64,000 bases of DNA from Hydrogenimonas sp. SS33 (GTDB lineage: Bacteria > Campylobacterota > Campylobacteria > Campylobacterales > Hydrogenimonadaceae). The DNA is taken from positions 931,501 through 995,500 of the forward strand of contig NZ_AP026369.1 in the NCBI RefSeq assembly GCF_040436365.1, in the 5' to 3' direction. Position numbers and translations under genes: made by a program. The notes under the pieces were generated by a model, which was not told the DNA's origin, ran no database searches, and was given only the letters and a program-made list of their open reading frames with translations. Positions 17,681 through 50,816 of this stretch are shown piece by piece (position 1 is the stretch's first letter; each line of letters opens with the position of its first letter).

Positions 17681-17807
17681 ACAGACGTTACGCAAAAAGC
17701 GTAACGTCCTCTCGAAATTTAAAGATTTCGAAGCTTTAGGGGGGTGCAGGGGACACTCGTGTCCCCGCCGAAGCATGGGCTTTGCTCATGCTTTGCGTAA
17801 CATCAGT
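17681..17807 (+). repeat. ACTGATGTTACGCA element, copy A (127 bases)
   Basis: The left end is ACAGACGTTACGC (two changes from the family terminus) and the right end is GCGTAACATCAGT. The interior matches copy B at 27896 in the same orientation, including a run of six G followed by TGCAGG. The flanks TAGAA and CAGAA agree at 4 of 5 bases, so the target duplication has decayed. It lies between the DUF1538 and NifU-like genes and ends at the NifU-like stop codon. Confidence 0.85.
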
Positions 17808-21909: not shown

Positions 21910-21923
21910 TTGACATCGGTCAA
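21910..21923 (+). promoter_or_regulatory. FNR/DNR-type operator TTGAC-N4-GTCAA
   Basis: Perfect dyad TTGAC-ATCG-GTCAA. The promoter next to it has TTGACT at 21924-21929 and TATAAT at 21946-21951, placing the dyad centre near -41 of the expected start. It precedes the DUF2249-like gene at 21984. Confidence 0.65.
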
Positions 21924-21983
21924 TTGACTCTGTGAAAAAATAGTATATAATCCCACTATAAATTGACGAAAAAAGGGGAGAAA

Positions 21984-22331
21984 ATGGAAATTTTACCGTC
22001 AGATGCAGAGAAAGTGGAGGTTCCCGGCGCGACCGTGGACTTCTACAAATACACCAAAGACGGCATCACCTACTACCAGTTCGATACATCCCGCTGCGGG
22101 CCGCCGGAGCCGATGGTCAACGCCATGAGCGGCCTGAAGCTGATCGACGGGCCCGACAAGAAGCTGGTGATGATCAACCACAAAAAACCGATGGGCCTTC
22201 TGGACAAAATCGGCCAGAATTACGAGGTTGAAACGGAAAACCTGGAGGATGGGCGCGTCAAACTGATCTTCAGTTACAAAGAGGGGGCCAGCGAAAAAGC
22301 CAACCTCGACGACAGCGCCTGCCACGGATAA
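21984..22331 (+). CDS. DUF2249-like (TusA-like fold) protein
   Basis: 115 residues. The core follows the DUF2249 pattern: a Cys/Gly-Pro-Pro-Glu-Pro motif (RCGPPEPMVNAMSGLK), a short strand (KKLVMINHKKPMGLL) and a final strand (GRVKLIFSYKEG). The start at 21984 has AAGGGGAG upstream and a strong promoter with a dyad. Related domains are encoded at 24366 and 26768. The exact role in denitrifiers is unknown. Confidence 0.7.
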   Translation: MEILPSDAEKVEVPGATVDFYKYTKDGITYYQFDTSRCGPPEPMVNAMSGLKLIDGPDKKLVMINHKKPMGLLDKIGQNYEVETENLEDGRVKLIFSYKEGASEKANLDDSACHG

Positions 22332-22342
22332 TTTTTCCCGGA

Positions 22343-22387
22343 AAACGAAAAGTGTAACGTGGCTCAGTCACGAAACGCTTTTCGTTT
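22343..22387 (+). terminator. Hairpin after the DUF2249-like gene
   Basis: Inverted repeat AAACGAAAAG/CTTTTCGTTT (10 base pairs, 25-base loop), followed by AACAAC. It may end or process the short transcript before the membrane-protein gene. Confidence 0.45.
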
Positions 22388-22415
22388 AACAACTTTCTAT
22401 CACATTTCATCTGTT

Positions 22416-22436
22416 TACCGTTCACTGTTCACTAAA
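22416..22436. repeat. Heptamer tandem repeat (TACCGTT/CACTGTT)
   Basis: Three 7-base units, TACCGTT, CACTGTT and CACTAAA, just upstream of the membrane-protein gene at 22455. Same unit as at 20814 and 40920. Confidence 0.65.
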
Positions 22437-22454
22437 CACAACAGAAGGTTTTCA

Positions 22455-23705
22455 ATGTTCAACGTATCGCGTGAATTCGCACCGCCTTTTTCACTCATAG
22501 CGCCCTTTTTCGTATTGGGCAGCCTCTTCTATCTCGCCGCCGCGTTCCTGCTTCCGATGTTCGACACTTCCATCAGCCATTTCGACATTTCGCTGGTCGG
22601 ATGGGCCCACCTCTTCCTGCTGGGCTTTGTGATGATGATCATCTTCGGGGCGATGGCCCAGCTCGTTCCGGTGGTGCTGGAGGTGGGGCACTTCAGCGTC
22701 GATTTCTACTACCTCATCTGGCCTTTTCTGGGCCTTGGGACACTGCTGATGGTCGCGGGATTCTGGCTCTCGCCCACTATTTTGCCCTACGGCGGTTTTC
22801 TGGTGCTCATCGCCATGGTCATCTTCCTCGCCGATACGATCCTGACGCTTCGCAAAGTCGAGCGCGTCAGCCTGACCGTCAAGACGGTGGCGGTGACCAA
22901 CGCCTTTTTGCTGCTGGGGATTCTGGTCGGCTTCATGATGGCCCTGGGCATCGGCGTGGGGGTCGGCGTCGACATCACCAAATGGCTCCACGCCCATATC
23001 GTCCTGGTCCTGGGAGGCTACGTGACGCTCACGATCATGGGAATGAGTCTCATACTGCTTCCGATGTTCGGTCTCTCCCACGGCTTCGACGAGCGTCCCA
23101 TCAACCTCAGCTTCAAAATCATGACGGGCGGCGTCCTCTTCTACCTGCTGGCGACTATCGTCGACAGTGAAACCGCCAGGACCCTCGCCCTGTTGGTGAT
23201 GCTGGCCGCCCAGGTGCTCTACCTCTACCAGATCTGGCTCATCAACGAAACCCGGGCACGCAAAGAGTGGGACATCTGGTACAAGTCGATGGTTTTCGGG
23301 TATGCCTCCCTGGCGTTGGCGTTGGTGCTGGGCCTCTTCGCCGCCCTCGGAGCGCCCGAATCCATCGGCATCGCCGCCGCCTGGTTTCTGGTGATGGGAT
23401 TTTTCACTTTCCTCATCAACGGCCATCTCTACAAAATCGTGCCGTTTCTGGTCTGGTTCGAGCGTTACAGCCCGCTGGTGGGCAAACGAAAGGTGCCGAT
23501 GCTGGCCGACATGGTTCCGGTGAAGCTGGCGGACTACCAGTTCCTCTTCACCGCCGCCGGCGTGGCCATCGCCGGTTTCGGGCTGCTCTTCCAAAGCGAT
23601 ACCATGTTCAAAGCCGGCGCCGCATTCAACGCCACCGGTGCCGTTTTTCTGGTGGCGGGCGTCGTAAAGATGATCAACTTCGGAAAAGAGTTGAAAGAAA
23701 ATTAA
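22455..23705 (+). CDS. Polytopic membrane protein, heme-copper-oxidase/NnrS-like, paralogue 1
   Basis: 416 residues with about twelve membrane helices. Conserved-looking His residues sit in helix starts: H52 (AHLFLLGFVMMIIFGAMAQL), H179 and H181 (HAHIVLVLGGYVTLTIMG), and one in NGHLYKIVPFLVWF. This H-x-H pattern is seen in NnrS and in CcoN/NorB-like proteins, but I cannot place it firmly in either. A paralogue lies at 25510. The start at 22455 has AGAAGG upstream. A role in NO or respiratory metabolism is inferred from the neighbours. Confidence 0.75.
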   Translation: MFNVSREFAPPFSLIAPFFVLGSLFYLAAAFLLPMFDTSISHFDISLVGWAHLFLLGFVMMIIFGAMAQLVPVVLEVGHFSVDFYYLIWPFLGLGTLLMVAGFWLSPTILPYGGFLVLIAMVIFLADTILTLRKVERVSLTVKTVAVTNAFLLLGILVGFMMALGIGVGVGVDITKWLHAHIVLVLGGYVTLTIMGMSLILLPMFGLSHGFDERPINLSFKIMTGGVLFYLLATIVDSETARTLALLVMLAAQVLYLYQIWLINETRARKEWDIWYKSMVFGYASLALALVLGLFAALGAPESIGIAAAWFLVMGFFTFLINGHLYKIVPFLVWFERYSPLVGKRKVPMLADMVPVKLADYQFLFTAAGVAIAGFGLLFQSDTMFKAGAAFNATGAVFLVAGVVKMINFGKELKEN

Positions 23706-23723
23706 TTTCAAGGAGAGAATGAA

Positions 23724-24035
23724 ATGGCTGAAACCGTAACGAAAGAACAGGTCTATGATGCCATCCGAAAGGTGGTCGACCCGGAAGTGGGGTTCAATCT
23801 GGTGGAGATGGGACTCATCTACGATGTCATCATCGACGAGAACAACAATGTCAAAGTGGTCATGACCCTCTCCACACGCGGCTGCCCCCTGCACCAGATG
23901 CTGACACAGTGGGTCAAGGATGCGGTCAAAGAGGTTCCCGGCGTCAACGATGTGGACGTCGAAGTGGTCTGGGAGCCGGCATGGAACATCTCCATGGCGG
24001 AGGACAATGTCAAAAAAGCGCTGGGGGCCCTCTAA
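23724..24035 (+). CDS. DUF59/MIP18-family metal-sulfur cluster assembly protein
   Basis: 103 residues, full-length MIP18 fold: VVDPEVGFNLVEMGLIYDV, then LSTRGCPLHQMLTQWV with the conserved Cys, then VEVVWEPAW. Family members help deliver Fe-S clusters. AAGGAGAG precedes the ATG. It is 18 bases after the membrane-protein gene and likely serves a protein of the same group. Confidence 0.9.
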   Translation: MAETVTKEQVYDAIRKVVDPEVGFNLVEMGLIYDVIIDENNNVKVVMTLSTRGCPLHQMLTQWVKDAVKEVPGVNDVDVEVVWEPAWNISMAEDNVKKALGAL

Positions 24036-24332
24036 GTGGAAGAGAAACCGGGCGCCAAAGAGGCTTGGATGCACGAACTGCGCCATCTCTACGGTGCGGG
24101 CATCCTCCTTTTCTACTACGCCAAGTGGCCCATCCTCATCGGATGGCCCGTCATGCGTTTCGTCCTCGACTACAAGGACAACTGGATCATCGACGCCCTC
24201 TGGCTCTGGTGCCTCATCCTCGTCGTCAAGGATTTCTACGTTCTTATTATCAAGAAAGAGCGTTACTGCACCGCCAAGGGCTGCAGACCCGAAGCGAAAG
24301 AGAAGGAAGAGAAGCCCTCTTCCGACATCTGA
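24036..24332 (+). CDS. Small membrane protein with C-terminal Cys pair
   Basis: 98 residues. Two hydrophobic segments at about 22-42 and 52-72, and a polar tail with CTAKGC near residue 80. It would start at GTG directly after the DUF59 stop; an ATG at 24069 is an alternative. No family is recognised. It is part of the plus-strand group 22455-24878. Confidence 0.65.
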   Translation: MEEKPGAKEAWMHELRHLYGAGILLFYYAKWPILIGWPVMRFVLDYKDNWIIDALWLWCLILVVKDFYVLIIKKERYCTAKGCRPEAKEKEEKPSSDI

Positions 24333-24365
24333 ATCCGGAGAACCGAACTGCAAGGAGCCAAAGAG

Positions 24366-24878
24366 ATGGAGATCACCCCAAAAACGAAAGTGAACGACCT
24401 GCTGAACGCCTACCCCCGACTGGAAGCGTTCCTGATGCAGCTCAACCCCAAATACAAAAAACTGAAAAACCCGGTTCTGCGCCGGACCGTGGCCAAAATC
24501 GCCACCCTGACCCAGGTCGCCAAAATCGGCGGCTACGAGCCGCTGGAACTGGTCAACAGACTGCGTAAAGAGGTGGGACAGCCGCCGCTGGGGGAGAGTG
24601 GAGAAAAAACGGAGGAGAGCGTGAACGAGGAAGCGCCCGCCTGGATAGACAAGGAACCCGGCGTCGTCGTCGACGCCAACAAACTTTTGGATGAGGAGAA
24701 AAACCCCCTCGCGGAAGTGACCAAAATGTTAAAAGGGCTGCAAAGCGGTGAGATCATCCTCATCGAAAGCGATTTTCTTCCCTCCCCCCTCATCGACACC
24801 TTCAAAGAGCAGGGGCACGACGTCTACGCGAAAGAGGCGGACAAAAACCGCTTCTTTACCTACATTCGCAAAAAGTGA
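24366..24878 (+). CDS. DUF1858 protein with a C-terminal DUF2249-like domain
   Basis: 170 residues. The N-terminal DUF1858 domain (about 1-65) reads VNDLLNAYPRLEAFLMQLNP and then LRRTVAKIATLTQVAKIGG. The linker is acidic. The C-terminal part (about 105-170, SGEIILIESDFLPSPLIDTF) resembles DUF2249. AAGGAG lies upstream of the ATG. Hybrid cluster and di-iron proteins often accompany DUF1858 domains, but no function is proved. Confidence 0.8.
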   Translation: MEITPKTKVNDLLNAYPRLEAFLMQLNPKYKKLKNPVLRRTVAKIATLTQVAKIGGYEPLELVNRLRKEVGQPPLGESGEKTEESVNEEAPAWIDKEPGVVVDANKLLDEEKNPLAEVTKMLKGLQSGEIILIESDFLPSPLIDTFKEQGHDVYAKEADKNRFFTYIRKK

Positions 24879-24887
24879 CCGTGTTCG

Positions 24888-24906
24888 GCTCCCGAACATC
24901 GGGAGC
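24888..24906. terminator. Bidirectional terminator between convergent groups
   Basis: Stem GCTCCCG/CGGGAGC (7 base pairs, 5-base loop) followed by ATTTTC. It separates the plus-strand group ending at 24878 from the minus-strand group ending at 24911. Confidence 0.7.
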
Positions 24907-24910
24907 ATTT

Positions 24911-25513
24911 TCATGAAACGGTGACGATCTCCTTCCAGAGCTCTTTCTCCGTCAGGATGCGCCGGACGCGGGCCTGCCAGAGTTCACCGAAGCGCTTTTT
25001 CTCCTCTTCGTTTGCCGCGCCCTGCATGATCTTTTGCATCAGAGGACCCATCTCCGGGCGGCCGGGGACGATGGAGGGGTCGTAGCTCATCTCGACATGC
25101 TCGGCATTGTCCAGCCGTGTCAGCCGCACTTCGGCACCCAGCTCCGCACCGAAGACGAGGCGGTTGTTACGGGCGAATTTGCCCCCGAGCCCTTTGAAGC
25201 CACCCTCGTTGCCCGCACCGGTAACCAGGCCGATGCAGCTGCCGATAACCCCGGCCACTCCCTCGTCCAGGGCTTCCCTTATCTCCACTTTGACATTGCC
25301 CCGTACCGGCAGTTCACTGCCGTAGAGTCTCTGCAACCCGATACGGGTCATCAGCCATGCACCGGCGACGGTGGGGCAGGAGTGGCCCGCCAGTTTGACC
25401 ATGTCGAGATAGTGGTAGGCGATTTTCCCCTCCTCCACGGCGCCGAGAATGTCGGCCAGGGGGTCGTAGGTGACGATGGGTTCGACGGTATCGAAAAAAG
25501 CGGGATAGATCAT
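24911..25513 (-). CDS. FmdE-like domain protein
   Basis: 200 residues. The stretch LAGHSCPTVAGAWLMT resembles the GHxCP motif of FmdE-type (formylmethanofuran dehydrogenase subunit E-like) domains, and GVIGSCIGLVTGAG gives a second Cys. It may bind a metal. The start overlaps the stop of the membrane-protein gene by ATGA. The functional assignment is weak. Confidence 0.65.
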   Translation of the reverse strand: MIYPAFFDTVEPIVTYDPLADILGAVEEGKIAYHYLDMVKLAGHSCPTVAGAWLMTRIGLQRLYGSELPVRGNVKVEIREALDEGVAGVIGSCIGLVTGAGNEGGFKGLGGKFARNNRLVFGAELGAEVRLTRLDNAEHVEMSYDPSIVPGRPEMGPLMQKIMQGAANEEEKKRFGELWQARVRRILTEKELWKEIVTVS

Positions 25514-26775
25514 TTGAGGATTCCTTTATCTTTGAGTCTGAAATAGATGCGCGCGGCACCCAGAAGGTTGAAGCCATAGAGCAGCGATTCGGCGAAAAAG
25601 AGCAGCGCCGCGGCTTTAAAGAGCGGCGGCAGCAAAACCGCCGCGGCGAGGGCGATGCCGACGGCCCAGTGGAGCCACAGGTGGGGACGCATCATTCTCG
25701 CGGCGATGATATCCCCCATCATCGGCGTCTCGAGCACCCCTTTGGCATTGAGGTGGAACCAGACCAGAAAGGGGATGATTTTGTAGCTCATGGCAAAAAC
25801 GACGCTCAGCACCACGTATCCGAAAAGATAGGCGGCCAGGGCGAAGCCGGGTGCCCATCCGCCGAGGTTTTGCAAGAACCAGAAGAGGACCGCCAGGGAG
25901 AGGGCCGCCATACCGGTACGCCACAATTGCACCGTCACGTCGGCCACGGGCCGTTTGCGCTGCCTGAGCCGCTTGAGAGTGATACCCGCGAATACCGCCA
26001 GCAGCAGCGCCAGGAGGGCGTCGAGCCATCCCGCCCACGCCGGCCTGAAGAGTTCCAGGGGTACATCCGCCACCAGTATGGCCATGATCGCCGACGGAAA
26101 CCACCGACGCACGTTGTTCGGATAGGGGGGCGTGACATAGAACATTTCGATCACCTGGAAGGCGACCGCCATGATCAAGACGACAATCCACCCGAAAAGC
26201 ATGAAATGCATATGGACATTGCGCAGATCCTGCGGCACGATGCCCAGATTCACCCCCATGAAAGTGAGCGTTACGGCAACGGCGAAAAGCAGTCCCATCC
26301 CCAGCGCCGTCAACGCCACGATCATCCCGATAACGGAAGGGGTCTTGTTCTCGACCTTCAGCAGCTTGAAAAGCATCATCAGCACAACGAACCCCAGGGA
26401 ACCCAGGAGCAGTGCCAGCGCGGGATGGAAGAGCCCGGGAACCTGGAAGTAGAGGCCGCCGGCAAGCATGAGCACCCCCAGCCCCATCAGGGCGTGGATC
26501 CAGCGGGCATGAAACATCGGGGCTTTGATGGCCGCCCCGGCGATGACCGGAAGCATCTGAAAGAGCGCACCCACCATCGCCATGCCGACCATGCCGAGCA
26601 GTACCAGATGCACGAGAGCCGCCGTCGTCGGCGCATCCCACACTGTCATCGTCTGCGCATCAGCCAAGCCGAGCGCCCCGGCCGCCAGCAGGCCGAAGAG
26701 GGGAATGGTGAGAAAAAAGCGTAGCACGGCCCCGAAGGGCGGGGCCTGGTCGAGTGAGAGCCCCCGGTTAAACAT
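25510..26775 (-). CDS. Polytopic membrane protein, heme-copper-oxidase/NnrS-like, paralogue 2
   Basis: 421 residues with about twelve membrane helices. It shares layout and motifs with the protein at 22455: H56 in VHLVLLGMVGMAMVGALFQM, H188/H190 in NVHMHFMLFGWIVVLIMAVA, and YKIIPFLVWFHLNAKG against YKIVPFLVWFERYSP. The start overlaps the DUF2249 gene by 8 bases. Function unknown; a heme or metal site built by these His residues is plausible. Confidence 0.75.
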   Translation of the reverse strand: MFNRGLSLDQAPPFGAVLRFFLTIPLFGLLAAGALGLADAQTMTVWDAPTTAALVHLVLLGMVGMAMVGALFQMLPVIAGAAIKAPMFHARWIHALMGLGVLMLAGGLYFQVPGLFHPALALLLGSLGFVVLMMLFKLLKVENKTPSVIGMIVALTALGMGLLFAVAVTLTFMGVNLGIVPQDLRNVHMHFMLFGWIVVLIMAVAFQVIEMFYVTPPYPNNVRRWFPSAIMAILVADVPLELFRPAWAGWLDALLALLLAVFAGITLKRLRQRKRPVADVTVQLWRTGMAALSLAVLFWFLQNLGGWAPGFALAAYLFGYVVLSVVFAMSYKIIPFLVWFHLNAKGVLETPMMGDIIAARMMRPHLWLHWAVGIALAAAVLLPPLFKAAALLFFAESLLYGFNLLGAARIYFRLKDKGILK

Positions 26776-27022
26776 GGCACGCCTTGCAAAGAGAGGCCAG
26801 ATCTACCGTGGGGCTTTTGGTGAAGTAGACGTGCCACTCCCCCTCCCCGGCTTCACACACTTCGTACCGAATGCCGAACCGCTCGGCGATCATCAGCAGC
26901 GGCTGGGGAAGGCGGTGGATCGTCAGGTGGAAAATATCCTCCCCGTCCATCCATTTGAAGACATCCATCGACCTCTCCAGCGGTTCGGGATGGTTGAGGC
27001 CTCTGGCATCAAGTTCGATCAC
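26768..27022 (-). CDS. DUF2249 protein
   Basis: 84 residues, single DUF2249 domain: ELDARGLNHPEPLERSM, FHLTIHRLPQPLLMIAERFG, WHVYF. It ends CKACHV, a Cys pair that could bind a metal or heme. It lies 10 bases after the hemerythrin gene and overlaps the membrane-protein gene by 8. Confidence 0.85.
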   Translation of the reverse strand: MIELDARGLNHPEPLERSMDVFKWMDGEDIFHLTIHRLPQPLLMIAERFGIRYEVCEAGEGEWHVYFTKSPTVDLASLCKACHV

Positions 27023-27032
27023 GCCAAAACCC

Positions 27033-27464
27033 TCAATGGTTCTTCATCTTCTCGACCAGCTCTTTCGCCTGCTCCGCAAGCACCTGGTCGCACATGGCGT
27101 AGAGCATCTGCTCCTCTTTCATATTGTGCTGCTGCAGAAGAATCATCAACGTGTCGGCCACAGAGAAGAAGGCGTCTTTGTCCTGCTTGTCGAGGGCGTC
27201 TTTCATCTGCTCCAGCAGCCCGCGGACCTGGTTATGCTCGTAGCGCATCACCTGGGTCGGCCCTTCGGTGCTGAGTGTCGCCGCTTCGAAGGCGGGAAAG
27301 AGCACCTCCTCTTCCCGGTCGAAGTGTTTGAGAGTATCGACCATGAAATTTTCGAAGGCGCTGAATGCCGCGCCGAAATCGCCGCCGTTGACCGCCTGCT
27401 CCACTTTGGCGAACTCGTCGTCGCACATCCGGTGTTCGTCACGCATATGGTTCGAAATTTCCAT
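27033..27464 (-). CDS. Hemerythrin HHE-domain protein
   Basis: 143 residues. Four-helix bundle with HMRDEHRMCDDEF (first His/Asp), HFDREEEVLFPAFE (His and Glu), RYEHNQVRGLL and LQQHNMKEEQMLY: the ligand set of a di-iron HHE domain. Such proteins repair Fe-S clusters or bind O2 or NO. It follows a tiny membrane-protein gene and leads the DUF2249 and membrane-protein genes. Confidence 0.9.
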   Translation of the reverse strand: MEISNHMRDEHRMCDDEFAKVEQAVNGGDFGAAFSAFENFMVDTLKHFDREEEVLFPAFEAATLSTEGPTQVMRYEHNQVRGLLEQMKDALDKQDKDAFFSVADTLMILLQQHNMKEEQMLYAMCDQVLAEQAKELVEKMKNH

Positions 27465-27467
27465 CTC

Positions 27468-27545
27468 TCAATCCTTGAACATAAAAATGATTTTGCCCAT
27501 CAAAAGGGCTGTCAGAGCCAAAAAGGACACCAGAATCCAGTCCAT
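27468..27545 (-). CDS. Single-helix membrane peptide (25 residues)
   Basis: Almost the whole peptide is one membrane helix (MDWILVSFLALTALLMGKI). The start at 27545 has AAGGA 7-8 bases upstream, and its stop is 3 bases before the hemerythrin start, so it is the first gene of that operon. It is like the small subunits that stabilise membrane oxidases, but no family is recognised. Confidence 0.5.
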   Translation of the reverse strand: MDWILVSFLALTALLMGKIIFMFKD

Positions 27546-27572: not shown

Positions 27573-27614
27573 ATTGTACAAAAAAAATGGTTTCACTCGG
27601 TTGATACGTATCAA
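27573..27614 (-). promoter_or_regulatory. FNR/DNR-type operator and promoter of the hemerythrin operon
   Basis: Perfect 14-base palindrome TTGATACGTATCAA at 27601-27614. On the minus strand a -10 box TACAAT is at 27578-27573, so the dyad centre is near -41 of the expected start: the class II activator position. Confidence 0.8.
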
Positions 27615-34012: not shown

Positions 34013-34055
34013 ATTATAGAGGTTCACACTTTAGAGTTTCCTTGACGGCTATCAA
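34013..34055. promoter_or_regulatory. FNR/DNR-type operator between siroheme decarboxylase and cysG-like genes
   Basis: TTGAC-GGCT-ATCAA at 34042-34055. On the minus strand TATAAT is at 34018-34013, so the centre lies about -42 from the predicted start of the siroheme decarboxylase gene. It may also serve the divergent gene at 34111, where a weaker TGATAC (34075-34080) lies at a suitable distance. Confidence 0.75.
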
Positions 34056-34110
34056 CATCCATTTATCCCTCATGTGATACCATTACAACCATTCCACGCA
34101 AGGATATGTT

Positions 34111-34686
34111 TTGGCCTATTTTCCGGCATTCGTCAAACTCGACAACCGTAAGATACTCCTGGTGGGCGGCGGCCGCATCGCCGGCGAAAAACTGGAAAAA
34201 CTGCTCGACTTCACCGAAGATATCACCATCGTCGCACCCGACATCGCCGGCCCTGTCCGCACGCTGGCACAGGCCCACGGCCTGACGATGCACGAGCGCC
34301 CCTACCGGCCCGACGATCTCGAAGGGGTCTTCCTCGCCATCGTCGCCGTCGACGATCTGGAACTGCAAAAGGCCATCTACGACGCCTGCCAGAGCCGGCA
34401 TACACTCTGCAACAGCGTCGATTCGGTCGATTACTGCGATTTCATCTTCCCCTCCTACACCAAAAAGGGGGATCTGACCGTCGCCTTCTCTACCTCCGGA
34501 ATCTCCCCTTCCGTGGCCAAATACCTGCGCCGCGCCATCGAAAGCGTCATCCCCGACGCCATCGCCGACTTCCTGCAGGAGATGAAGGCGCTTCGCGCCT
34601 CGCTGCCCAAAGGGAAAGAGCGGATGCGCCTGCTCGATGCCAAAGCCAAAGCCTATATCGAAAAACTTTTCAACAAGGAACTCTGA
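34111..34686 (+). CDS. Precorrin-2 dehydrogenase/sirohydrochlorin ferrochelatase-like protein
   Basis: 191 residues, the CysG N-terminal/Met8 family. NAD-binding motif LLVGGGRIAGEKLEKLL at about 17-33; CNSVDSVDYCDFIFP and STSGISPSVAKYLR match the family. TTG is the start (AAGGA upstream). It would convert precorrin-2 towards siroheme, feeding the heme d1 route with CobA and the siroheme decarboxylase next to it. Confidence 0.9.
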   Translation: MAYFPAFVKLDNRKILLVGGGRIAGEKLEKLLDFTEDITIVAPDIAGPVRTLAQAHGLTMHERPYRPDDLEGVFLAIVAVDDLELQKAIYDACQSRHTLCNSVDSVDYCDFIFPSYTKKGDLTVAFSTSGISPSVAKYLRRAIESVIPDAIADFLQEMKALRASLPKGKERMRLLDAKAKAYIEKLFNKEL

Positions 34687-49981: not shown

Positions 49982-50167
49982 ATGGATGCGGTCCTAACCC
50001 TTGTTTTCAGCATTGTCATGCTCTTTTTCATGATCTATCCCGCGATGAAGATTACGGAGTGGATCGACGCGAAAATCGGCATACCGGATCGATGGTACAA
50101 ACCCGTCATGCTTCTGACGGTTCTCGTTTTATCGCTTTTCATAGGAGTTTTTCTTAAATATGCCTGA
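49982..50167 (+). CDS. Small two-helix membrane protein before the Crp/Fnr gene
   Basis: 61 residues with two helices (about 3-22 and 40-58). AAGGAT precedes the ATG. Overlaps the regulator gene by 8 bases. No family is recognised. Confidence 0.7.
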   Translation: MDAVLTLVFSIVMLFFMIYPAMKITEWIDAKIGIPDRWYKPVMLLTVLVLSLFIGVFLKYA

Positions 50168-50816
50168 ATCAAAGACAATGGAAAAGCTGAAAAGTTTCTA
50201 CCTTTTCAAACATTTGACCGATGCGCAGTTCAAACGGCTCGAAGAGATATCCAATATTATGGATTATAAAAAAGGAACCATTCTTTTCTTCGAAGGGGAC
50301 GAGGCGAAAAACATGATCGTCCTGCTCGACGGGATTCTGCAAGTCTACAAAACCGACCAGAAGGGGAACAAAGTCATTCTCCACCACTTCTTTCCCGTCG
50401 ACGTCATCGCCGAAATCGTCAATTTGGAGCATATGCGCTATCCCGCTTCCGCCGAATTCGAAACCGACGGGAAAGCACTGGTCATCAACTATGAACACTT
50501 CGAAAACGAGTTTCTCAAAAACCCCGAAGTCGCTTTCGCCTTCATCAAGTCACTCTCCAAAAAGATCAAATACCTCGAAAATGTCATCGCCACCAACATG
50601 GTGATGAACTCCACCGCCCGGGTCGCCAAATTCATCTGCGAACACGGCCACGAAATCTCCTCTTTGAAAAAGAGCATGATCGCCGCCGACTTGAACATGA
50701 CCCCTGAAACCCTCTCCCGCATTCTCAAAAAACTCTCCACACTCGGCTTGATAGAGAAGAGAAAAGAGGAGATTGTCATTCTCGACAAAGAGGGCCTCGA
50801 GACGTTTTATCTTTAG
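50160..50816 (+). CDS. Crp/Fnr-family regulator, DNR-like
   Basis: 218 residues. N-terminal cyclic-nucleotide-binding-like barrel (about 15-125), long helix, and C-terminal helix-turn-helix with recognition segment MTPETLSRILKKL. Its E-x-x-S-R matches FNR/DNR members that read TTGAT. There is only one Cys (FICEHG), so it cannot carry an FNR Fe-S cluster; NO sensing as in DNR is more likely. It is located between the nor-nir and nap clusters, next to matching operators. Confidence 0.9.
   Translation: MPESKTMEKLKSFYLFKHLTDAQFKRLEEISNIMDYKKGTILFFEGDEAKNMIVLLDGILQVYKTDQKGNKVILHHFFPVDVIAEIVNLEHMRYPASAEFETDGKALVINYEHFENEFLKNPEVAFAFIKSLSKKIKYLENVIATNMVMNSTARVAKFICEHGHEISSLKKSMIAADLNMTPETLSRILKKLSTLGLIEKRKEEIVILDKEGLETFYL

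Follow-up and report, generated by a model that had tools for sequence, protein, structure and literature searches.

The genes considered here lie in a 64-kb window of the Hydrogenimonas sp. SS33 genome (contig NZ_AP026369.1, positions 931501-995500), the whole stretch of DNA that was analysed, and gene coordinates are given as positions in this window. Ten open reading frames were found in two convergent groups, each encoding a protein with a named domain or with membrane character, and all those listed by a previous sequence-only reading of the same DNA were present. The plus-strand group has the order P1-P2-P3-P4-P5, corresponding to a DUF2249-like protein, a membrane protein, a DUF59 protein, a small membrane protein and a DUF1858+DUF2249 protein, and the minus-strand group has the order M1-M2-M3-M4-M5, corresponding to a 25-residue peptide, a hemerythrin, a DUF2249 protein, a second membrane protein and an FmdE-like protein. 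Both groups presented an operon-like arrangement, since several genes overlap or abut (M4/M5 and M3/M4 overlap, and P3/P4 abut). According to the structural models, each operon is centred on a protein of heme-copper oxidase (HCO) fold in which the binuclear heme/CuB centre is no longer present. The genes and control signals of the locus are as follows.

21910-21923, plus strand: DNR/FNR-type box TTGACATCGGTCAA of the plus operon (exact match)
21946-21951, plus strand: -10 element TATAAT of the plus operon (11 of 12 sigma-70 consensus matches together with TTGACT)
21984-22331, plus strand: P1, soluble protein of 115 residues, DUF2249/TusA-like (Pfam DUF2249 17.6 bits, under the 29.5 cut-off)
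22455-23705, plus strand: P2, 12-helix membrane protein modelled with the HCO fold, type 1 (AlphaFold, Foldseek, VIA)
23724-24035, plus strand: P3, DUF59/FeS_assembly_P protein, SufT-like (Pfam E 1.6e-19)
24036-24332, plus strand: P4, small membrane protein of 98 residues (alignment of 37 sequences, from the window and 36 loci)
24366-24878, plus strand: P5, DUF1858 (E 1.4e-14) and DUF2249, homologue of Thermus DrpB (Pfam, blastp)
24888-24906, unstranded: terminator-like hairpin between the converging last genes (8-pair stem GCTCCCGA/TCGGGAGC, then ATTTT)
24911-25513, minus strand: M5, FmdE-like protein with a conserved GHSCP motif (Pfam FmdE E 2.1e-7; conservation)
25510-26775, minus strand: M4, 12-helix membrane protein modelled with the HCO fold, type 2, paralogue of P2 (AlphaFold, Foldseek, VIA)
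26768-27022, minus strand: M3, DUF2249 protein (Pfam E 7.2e-11)
27033-27464, minus strand: M2, hemerythrin-domain protein (Pfam E 1.7e-22)
27468-27545, minus strand: M1, single-helix membrane peptide of 25 residues MDWILVSFLALTALLMGKIIFMFKD
27573-27578, minus strand: -10 element TACAAT of the minus operon (pattern match)
27601-27614, minus strand: DNR/FNR-type box TTGATACGTATCAA of the minus operon (exact match)

Fold and conserved histidines of P2 and M4

The homology between P2 and M4 extends from end to end (hhalign probability 100, E 2e-69), and sequence comparison identifies them as true paralogues, as had been proposed. AlphaFold generated confident 12-helix models for both (pLDDT 88.6 for P2 and 93.0 for M4), for which the top Foldseek match was CcoN, subunit I of cbb3 oxidase (E 3.5e-7 and 1.6e-6, respectively). 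Alignment with VIA gave Z scores against CcoN of 35.1 over 388 residues for P2 and 33.6 over 386 residues for M4, followed by NorB (33.1 and 31.4). In these models, both proteins share over their full length the 12-helix HCO fold of CcoN and NorB, which are their closest structures. When the P2/M4 family profile was compared with PDB sequences, only CcoN chains were significant (best E 1.4e-8), and the pattern H-x4-G-x7-GA-x5-P of CcoN helix X was seen in transmembrane helix (TM) 2 of P2. Profile comparisons with CcoN and NorB by hhalign gave weak scores only, because the alignments were shallow.

The conservation of His residues was evaluated in 135 sequences, comprising 100 of the P type, 29 of the M type and six outgroup sequences from Thermus, rhizobia and haloarchaea. 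Only two His positions were invariant in this sample, H52/H56 in TM2 and H181/H188 in TM6 (P2/M4 numbering) and, as no other was kept throughout, the six-ligand oxidase pattern is not maintained. H209 and H324 were invariant in P only, and in M a Met occupies the place of H324 and the His at 341 is kept. Whereas CcoN and NorB have six His and the CuB/FeB ligands, the P2/M4 family presents the two invariant His and none of those ligands, since it lacks both the His pair for CuB/FeB and the first of the His conserved in helix X.

The loop charges followed a positive-inside distribution, with 17 Lys and Arg in cytoplasmic versus 2 in periplasmic loop segments, summed for each protein, and the N-terminus is predicted to be cytoplasmic, as are the ends of TM2, TM6 and TM10. 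This topology would thus place the two invariant His near the periplasmic side, as the hemes in oxidases, and E76, H79, H209 and E336/H341 towards the cytoplasmic side. The two invariant transmembrane His would be enough for one bis-His heme b, for which they are candidate ligands.

An H-x-H motif (LHAH, VHMH) had been suggested to be common to both proteins. Its presence in both is a coincidence, and it was rejected as a sign of common chemistry, as P keeps the second His and M the first, with the other one not conserved in either case. Another HCO-like membrane protein, with a weak COX1 match and the sequence GHAHVAVG, was observed at genome positions 113791-114849, its frame coming after one that resembles an ABC-transporter ATPase.

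Promoters and the shared regulon

The sequence-only reading had placed a DNR-type site at -41 in both groups and had described them as meeting at one terminator, and both statements held. Exact boxes were found with the pattern TTGAY-N4-RTCAA, and a promoter pattern composed of the box, 22 bases and TANNNT fitted both operons with an identical spacing between the box and the -10 element, so that both box centres lie near -41.5; the convergent groups end at the hairpin listed above. In Campylobacterota, an exact box was present upstream of P1 homologues in 97 of 114 loci (0.22 expected by shuffling), usually with a TATAAT-like element at the same spacing or within 1-2 bases of it, and upstream of M2 homologues in 22 of 38 loci (0.10 expected), these counts not being fully independent because some genomes appear twice.

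The box with a -10 element at this spacing occurred at only 12 sites in the whole 2.25-Mb genome and at none in the reversed control. Besides the two operons, the genes downstream of these sites, as named from sequence, included nap, a NosZ-like gene and another gene of nos type, one resembling siroheme synthase, and genes for cytochromes c. The proposed co-regulation was therefore supported, as nap and the NosZ-like gene are preceded by the same box as the two groups. Judging from the promoter sequences, the box near -41.5, common to denitrification genes, makes the two operons members of a DNR-type regulon, and one DNR/FNR-type activator probably acts over both. Three Crp-type regulators were found in the genome, and the one encoded at 50160-50816, between norCB and nap, is a candidate activator of the box genes. 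Its recognition helix reads TPETLSR, like that of FNR, but the N-terminal Cys cluster found in FNR is absent from it.

Other elements were observed around these signals. The siroheme-synthase-like gene at 34042-34683 has an exact DNR-type box, and a gene of this type was found directly upstream of P1 in a Sulfurovum locus (L067). An unusual HCO subunit I of 590 residues (MTVHPIVG, SHHLLGDQ, SFAHFHIA), possibly of another class of nitric oxide (NO) reductase (NOR), is encoded at genome positions 1015672-1017129, downstream of the same DNR-type box with a -10 element (genome positions 1014910-1014951). In addition, the palindrome TTACGC-N5-GCGTAA was present in five copies in the window when one mismatch was allowed (0.07 expected by shuffling), at 17688, 27650, 27903, 35170 and 50922, and the copies inspected were intergenic.

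Partner proteins and occurrence in other genomes

While the partners of CcoN and NorB are cytochrome c subunits, those of P2 and M4 are soluble proteins of metal-sulfur type, and this family content (DUF59, hemerythrin and DUF2249), also put forward by the sequence-only reading, proved to be real. Although P1 itself fell short of the Pfam cut-off, 11 of 28 homologues matched DUF2249 (best E 1e-6), and its family conserved DTSxCGPPEPMVNAM, NHKxP and the C-terminal Cys113. P3 and M2 harbor the DUF59 and hemerythrin domains also found in the Fe-S maintenance proteins SufT and RIC (YtfE), and score below the respective equivalog cut-offs. P3 clearly exceeded the Pfam DUF59/FeS_assembly_P cut-off (70.4 versus 23.5 bits), with a conserved Cys54, and remained under that of the SufT-type NCBIfam model TIGR02945 (99.8 versus 143.4 bits); M2 matched RIC/YtfE models weakly, without reaching the NCBIfam cut-off of TIGR03652 (28.3 versus 204.7 bits). 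Among the loci examined, M1 was found only in those of Hydrogenimonas, at the same place and with 79-92% identity.

In Campylobacterota, 80 named loci were recovered with the P2 profile, of which 77 contained the P1 cluster and 75 the P3 cluster, in the order P1-P2-P3. P4, P5 and FmdE follow this triple in Hydrogenimonas and a few other lineages, and outside this genus P4 is often several kb away from it. In Sulfurovum-like contigs (L069, L071, L094, L108, L140 and others), the P4 homologues were located ~8-10 kb from the triple, and in the Sulfurovum locus L067 nap genes occupy a comparable stretch. The M4-type genes were found outside Hydrogenimonas at separate loci, with hemerythrin and sometimes DUF2249 and FmdE. 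There are therefore two modules, joined in this genus only, as sampled, and the claim that both groups form one unit was not supported, this survey of gene neighbourhoods agreeing in part with the outcome that the sequence-only reading had set as a refutation. A plasmid search with P1 returned one match only, in the Aliarcobacter butzleri plasmid NZ_CP104333.1, in which a Tn3 transposase/recombinase and an IS21 element flank the P1-P2-P3 triple, which may therefore be mobile; the plasmid search with M4 gave no matches.

The occurrence of P2-type proteins was associated with that of NOR-type oxidases, defined as COX1 matches other than CcoN that reach 150 bits or more, with strong aa3-type matches left out. 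Considering all genomes, 30 had both, 7 and 4 had one alone and 19 had neither (p 2e-6), and with Hydrogenimonas left out the counts were 16/6/2/18 (p 4.5e-5), in statistics that ignore ancestry and in which some P2 matches are M-type genes.

An oxidase-fold protein with DUF2249 and DUF59 also recurs in Thermus nar and in rhizobial nor/nir/nos clusters, and without DUF59 in haloarchaeal plasmids, this breadth outside Campylobacterota resting on plasmid records. The Thermus thermophilus JL-18 island comprises narGHI, a chaperone, a transporter, drpA, drpB, a 4-helix protein of 144 residues, a protoglobin, an HCO-like gene and DUF59, in which the pair of DUF2249 genes following the nar transporter were named drpA and drpB by the order described in PMC6282519. 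The 144-residue protein (L197:8665-9099, a JL-18 plasmid), encoded between DrpB and the protoglobin and near the 12-helix HCO-like gene, reads like a single 4-helix HCO unit (SHVHAGLVGFFLQMVMGVAYWMMP). In Sinorhizobium medicae, norCBQD, hemN, DUF2249, HCO-like, DUF59, NnrS and Crp/Fnr genes were found together, to which R. phaseoli adds a second DUF2249 gene and nirK. The Mesorhizobium set consists of HCO-like, DUF2249, DUF59, DUF1858, Crp/Fnr, pseudoazurin, NnrS and nosRZ, and Paracoccus carries HCO-like, DUF2249, DUF59 and Crp/Fnr genes near nor genes. Haloprofundus presented nirK, three DUF2249 genes and an HCO-like gene without DUF59, and some haloarchaeal plasmid copies had no reductase in the stretch seen.

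The likeness to Thermus extends to individual proteins. P5 is homologous to DrpB (blastp against T. thermophilus JL-18, E 1.5e-27, 32% identity over 165 residues) and has the same domain set, DUF1858 and DUF2249, but with one DUF2249 domain instead of two in tandem. P3 showed 38% identity (E 6e-25) to the DUF59 partner, which forms with the HCO-like gene a pair after drpAB, and the similarity between M3 and DrpA, a short DUF2249 protein, was weak (E 0.002, when 11 sequences were compared). On the other hand, the Thermus island adds the protoglobin and the 4-helix HCO-like unit and lacks hemerythrin and FmdE genes.

Possible roles in denitrification

COG4309 corresponds to the DUF2249 family. 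It was tied to norB as a gene neighbour in 2005 (PMC1274295), and DUF2249 genes were shown to be induced in Haloferax denitrification by a study that named Pei et al. 2014 as the source of a DUF2249-HCO superfamily link (PMC11218638). The domain and regulon context of these proteins is like that of P1, although both papers treat DUF2249 alone; compared with their DUF2249, P1 is characterized by an invariant Cys at the C-terminus and, in most members, by another within the TusA-like motif. In Thermus, deletion of drpAB uncoupled nar expression from nitrate, and the double mutants made nitrate reductase protein with little activity (PMC6282519). Moreover, a DUF1858 protein of Bradyrhizobium is strongly NnrR-dependent (PMC6710368), and SufT, a DUF59 protein, acts in Fe-S maturation when demand is high (PMC4982691). 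A description of the whole operon was not found in the literature searched on DUF2249, DUF1858 and COG4309, but the earlier claim of novelty was overstated, as the DUF2249-nor and DUF2249-HCO links and DrpA/DrpB had already been published. The finding is thus a well-conserved and little-studied variant of known parts, and no new category.

We tentatively favour, at a little under an even chance, a reading in which these are two denitrification accessory operons centred on oxidase-fold heme proteins that serve the upkeep of metal-sulfur cofactors under NO. P2 and M4 would bind one bis-His heme b through the two invariant His near the periplasmic face, and their cytoplasmic side, with its type-specific conserved charged and His residues, would be the likely docking face for the DUF2249 (TusA-like), DUF59 (SufT-like), DrpB-homologous, hemerythrin and FmdE-like proteins. 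Under nitrate/NO respiration, the membrane heme protein might sense NO or pass electrons to these cytosolic metal-sulfur proteins, which would keep the cofactors of the denitrifying chain or the Fe-S enzymes of the cell assembled or repaired amid NO. The NO-related interpretation of the sequence-only reading is supported in part by the co-occurrence with NOR and by the nar/nor/nirK/nosZ neighbourhoods, but not as regards plus and minus groups acting as one unit.

Some observations weigh against this reading. The Thermus drpAB mutants point to regulation and nitrate reductase activity, not repair (PMC6282519), and P/M groups occurred without a detected NOR-type oxidase in 7 of 37 genomes, some of them drafts, so that something other than NO of the cell's own making may be the target. 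In addition, the canonical ligand positions to which H52 and H181 would correspond depend on the alignment: sequence alignments set units 1 and 2 of P2/M4 against CcoN units 3 and 1, unlike the structural alignment with CcoN, which is collinear. Pfam COX1 matches unit 2 to its last unit, and HMMER domains likewise suggest a circular permutation, but when the family alignment was permuted in all six orders none stood out against CcoN.

The module could instead act in the maturation of Nap, NOR, NosZ or Nar, inserting or repairing their heme, Cu, Mo or Fe-S cofactors, which we consider rather unlikely. Its location within or close to the nar, nor, nir or nos clusters of other phyla, the DUF59 partner and the poorly active nitrate reductase of the Thermus double mutants (PMC6282519) speak for such a function, but the neighbouring enzyme varies by lineage (nap, nar, nor, nirK, nosZ) and thus no single client emerges; some genomes carry the module with no NOR-type oxidase found, and some haloarchaeal copies show no reductase in the stretch seen. 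The homology of P5 to DrpB, the uncoupling of nar expression in the drpAB deletion (PMC6282519) and the membership in a DNR-type regulon would also fit a signalling role, in which nitrate, NO or the redox state would be perceived by the heme protein and the signal passed on to transcription through the DrpB-like and DUF2249 proteins. This is judged unlikely, since domain scans of the operons detected neither kinase nor phosphorelay nor DNA-binding domains, and DUF59, of Fe-S assembly type, belongs to the two best-conserved soluble partners. Both maturation and signalling stay live rivals because the drpAB mutants display altered nar expression together with a poorly active nitrate reductase.

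A resemblance to NnrS, which the literature describes as a 12-helix membrane protein of denitrification regulons, like P2 and M4, raises the idea of a factor handling iron-NO complexes or exporting a nitrosylated product. The profile similarity in hhalign was weak (probability 82 and E 1e-5 for M4, probability 46 for P2), and rhizobial clusters carry NnrS and the HCO-like gene close together; however, Pfam NnrS (PF05940) matched neither P2 nor M4 up to E 0.1, and NnrS is a separate gene in rhizobial clusters holding the module and elsewhere in the Hydrogenimonas genome. As the two types of genes coexist, they probably do not have the same activity, and an NnrS-like role appears improbable. It is likewise improbable that P2 and M4 are a new HCO subtype acting as a catalytic NO reductase or NO-detoxifying enzyme, for although the HCO fold, the Z scores with NorB and the NO-type regulation agree with it, only two His are invariant, the CuB/FeB pair and the first His of helix X are missing, and a canonical NorB with all ligands is already encoded in the genome (46780-48243).

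Going beyond this locus, it is conceivable, albeit doubtful, that P2 and M4 represent a widespread bacterial and archaeal oxidase-fold class without the catalytic metal centre, in which a single heme links the membrane (quinone pool or NO) to a cytosolic repair kit. That this metal-sulfur kit comprises DUF2249, DUF59, DrpB-like and hemerythrin proteins and forms an undescribed NO-protection branch in denitrifiers, as part of the single-heme reading, is equally a possibility regarded with some scepticism.

Campylobacterota with NOR-type oxidases commonly carry the module, and it recurs by nar, nor, nirK and nosZ in Deinococcota, rhizobia and partly haloarchaea, while its membrane proteins are annotated as "hypothetical protein" and DUF2249 has no assigned function. 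Should the module protect or mature cofactors, it would be a missing part of denitrification, bearing on the release of NO and nitrous oxide (N2O). The family also offers a test case for an HCO fold without the catalytic centre, and the conservation of the operon, the box and the two candidate heme ligands make the module directly testable.

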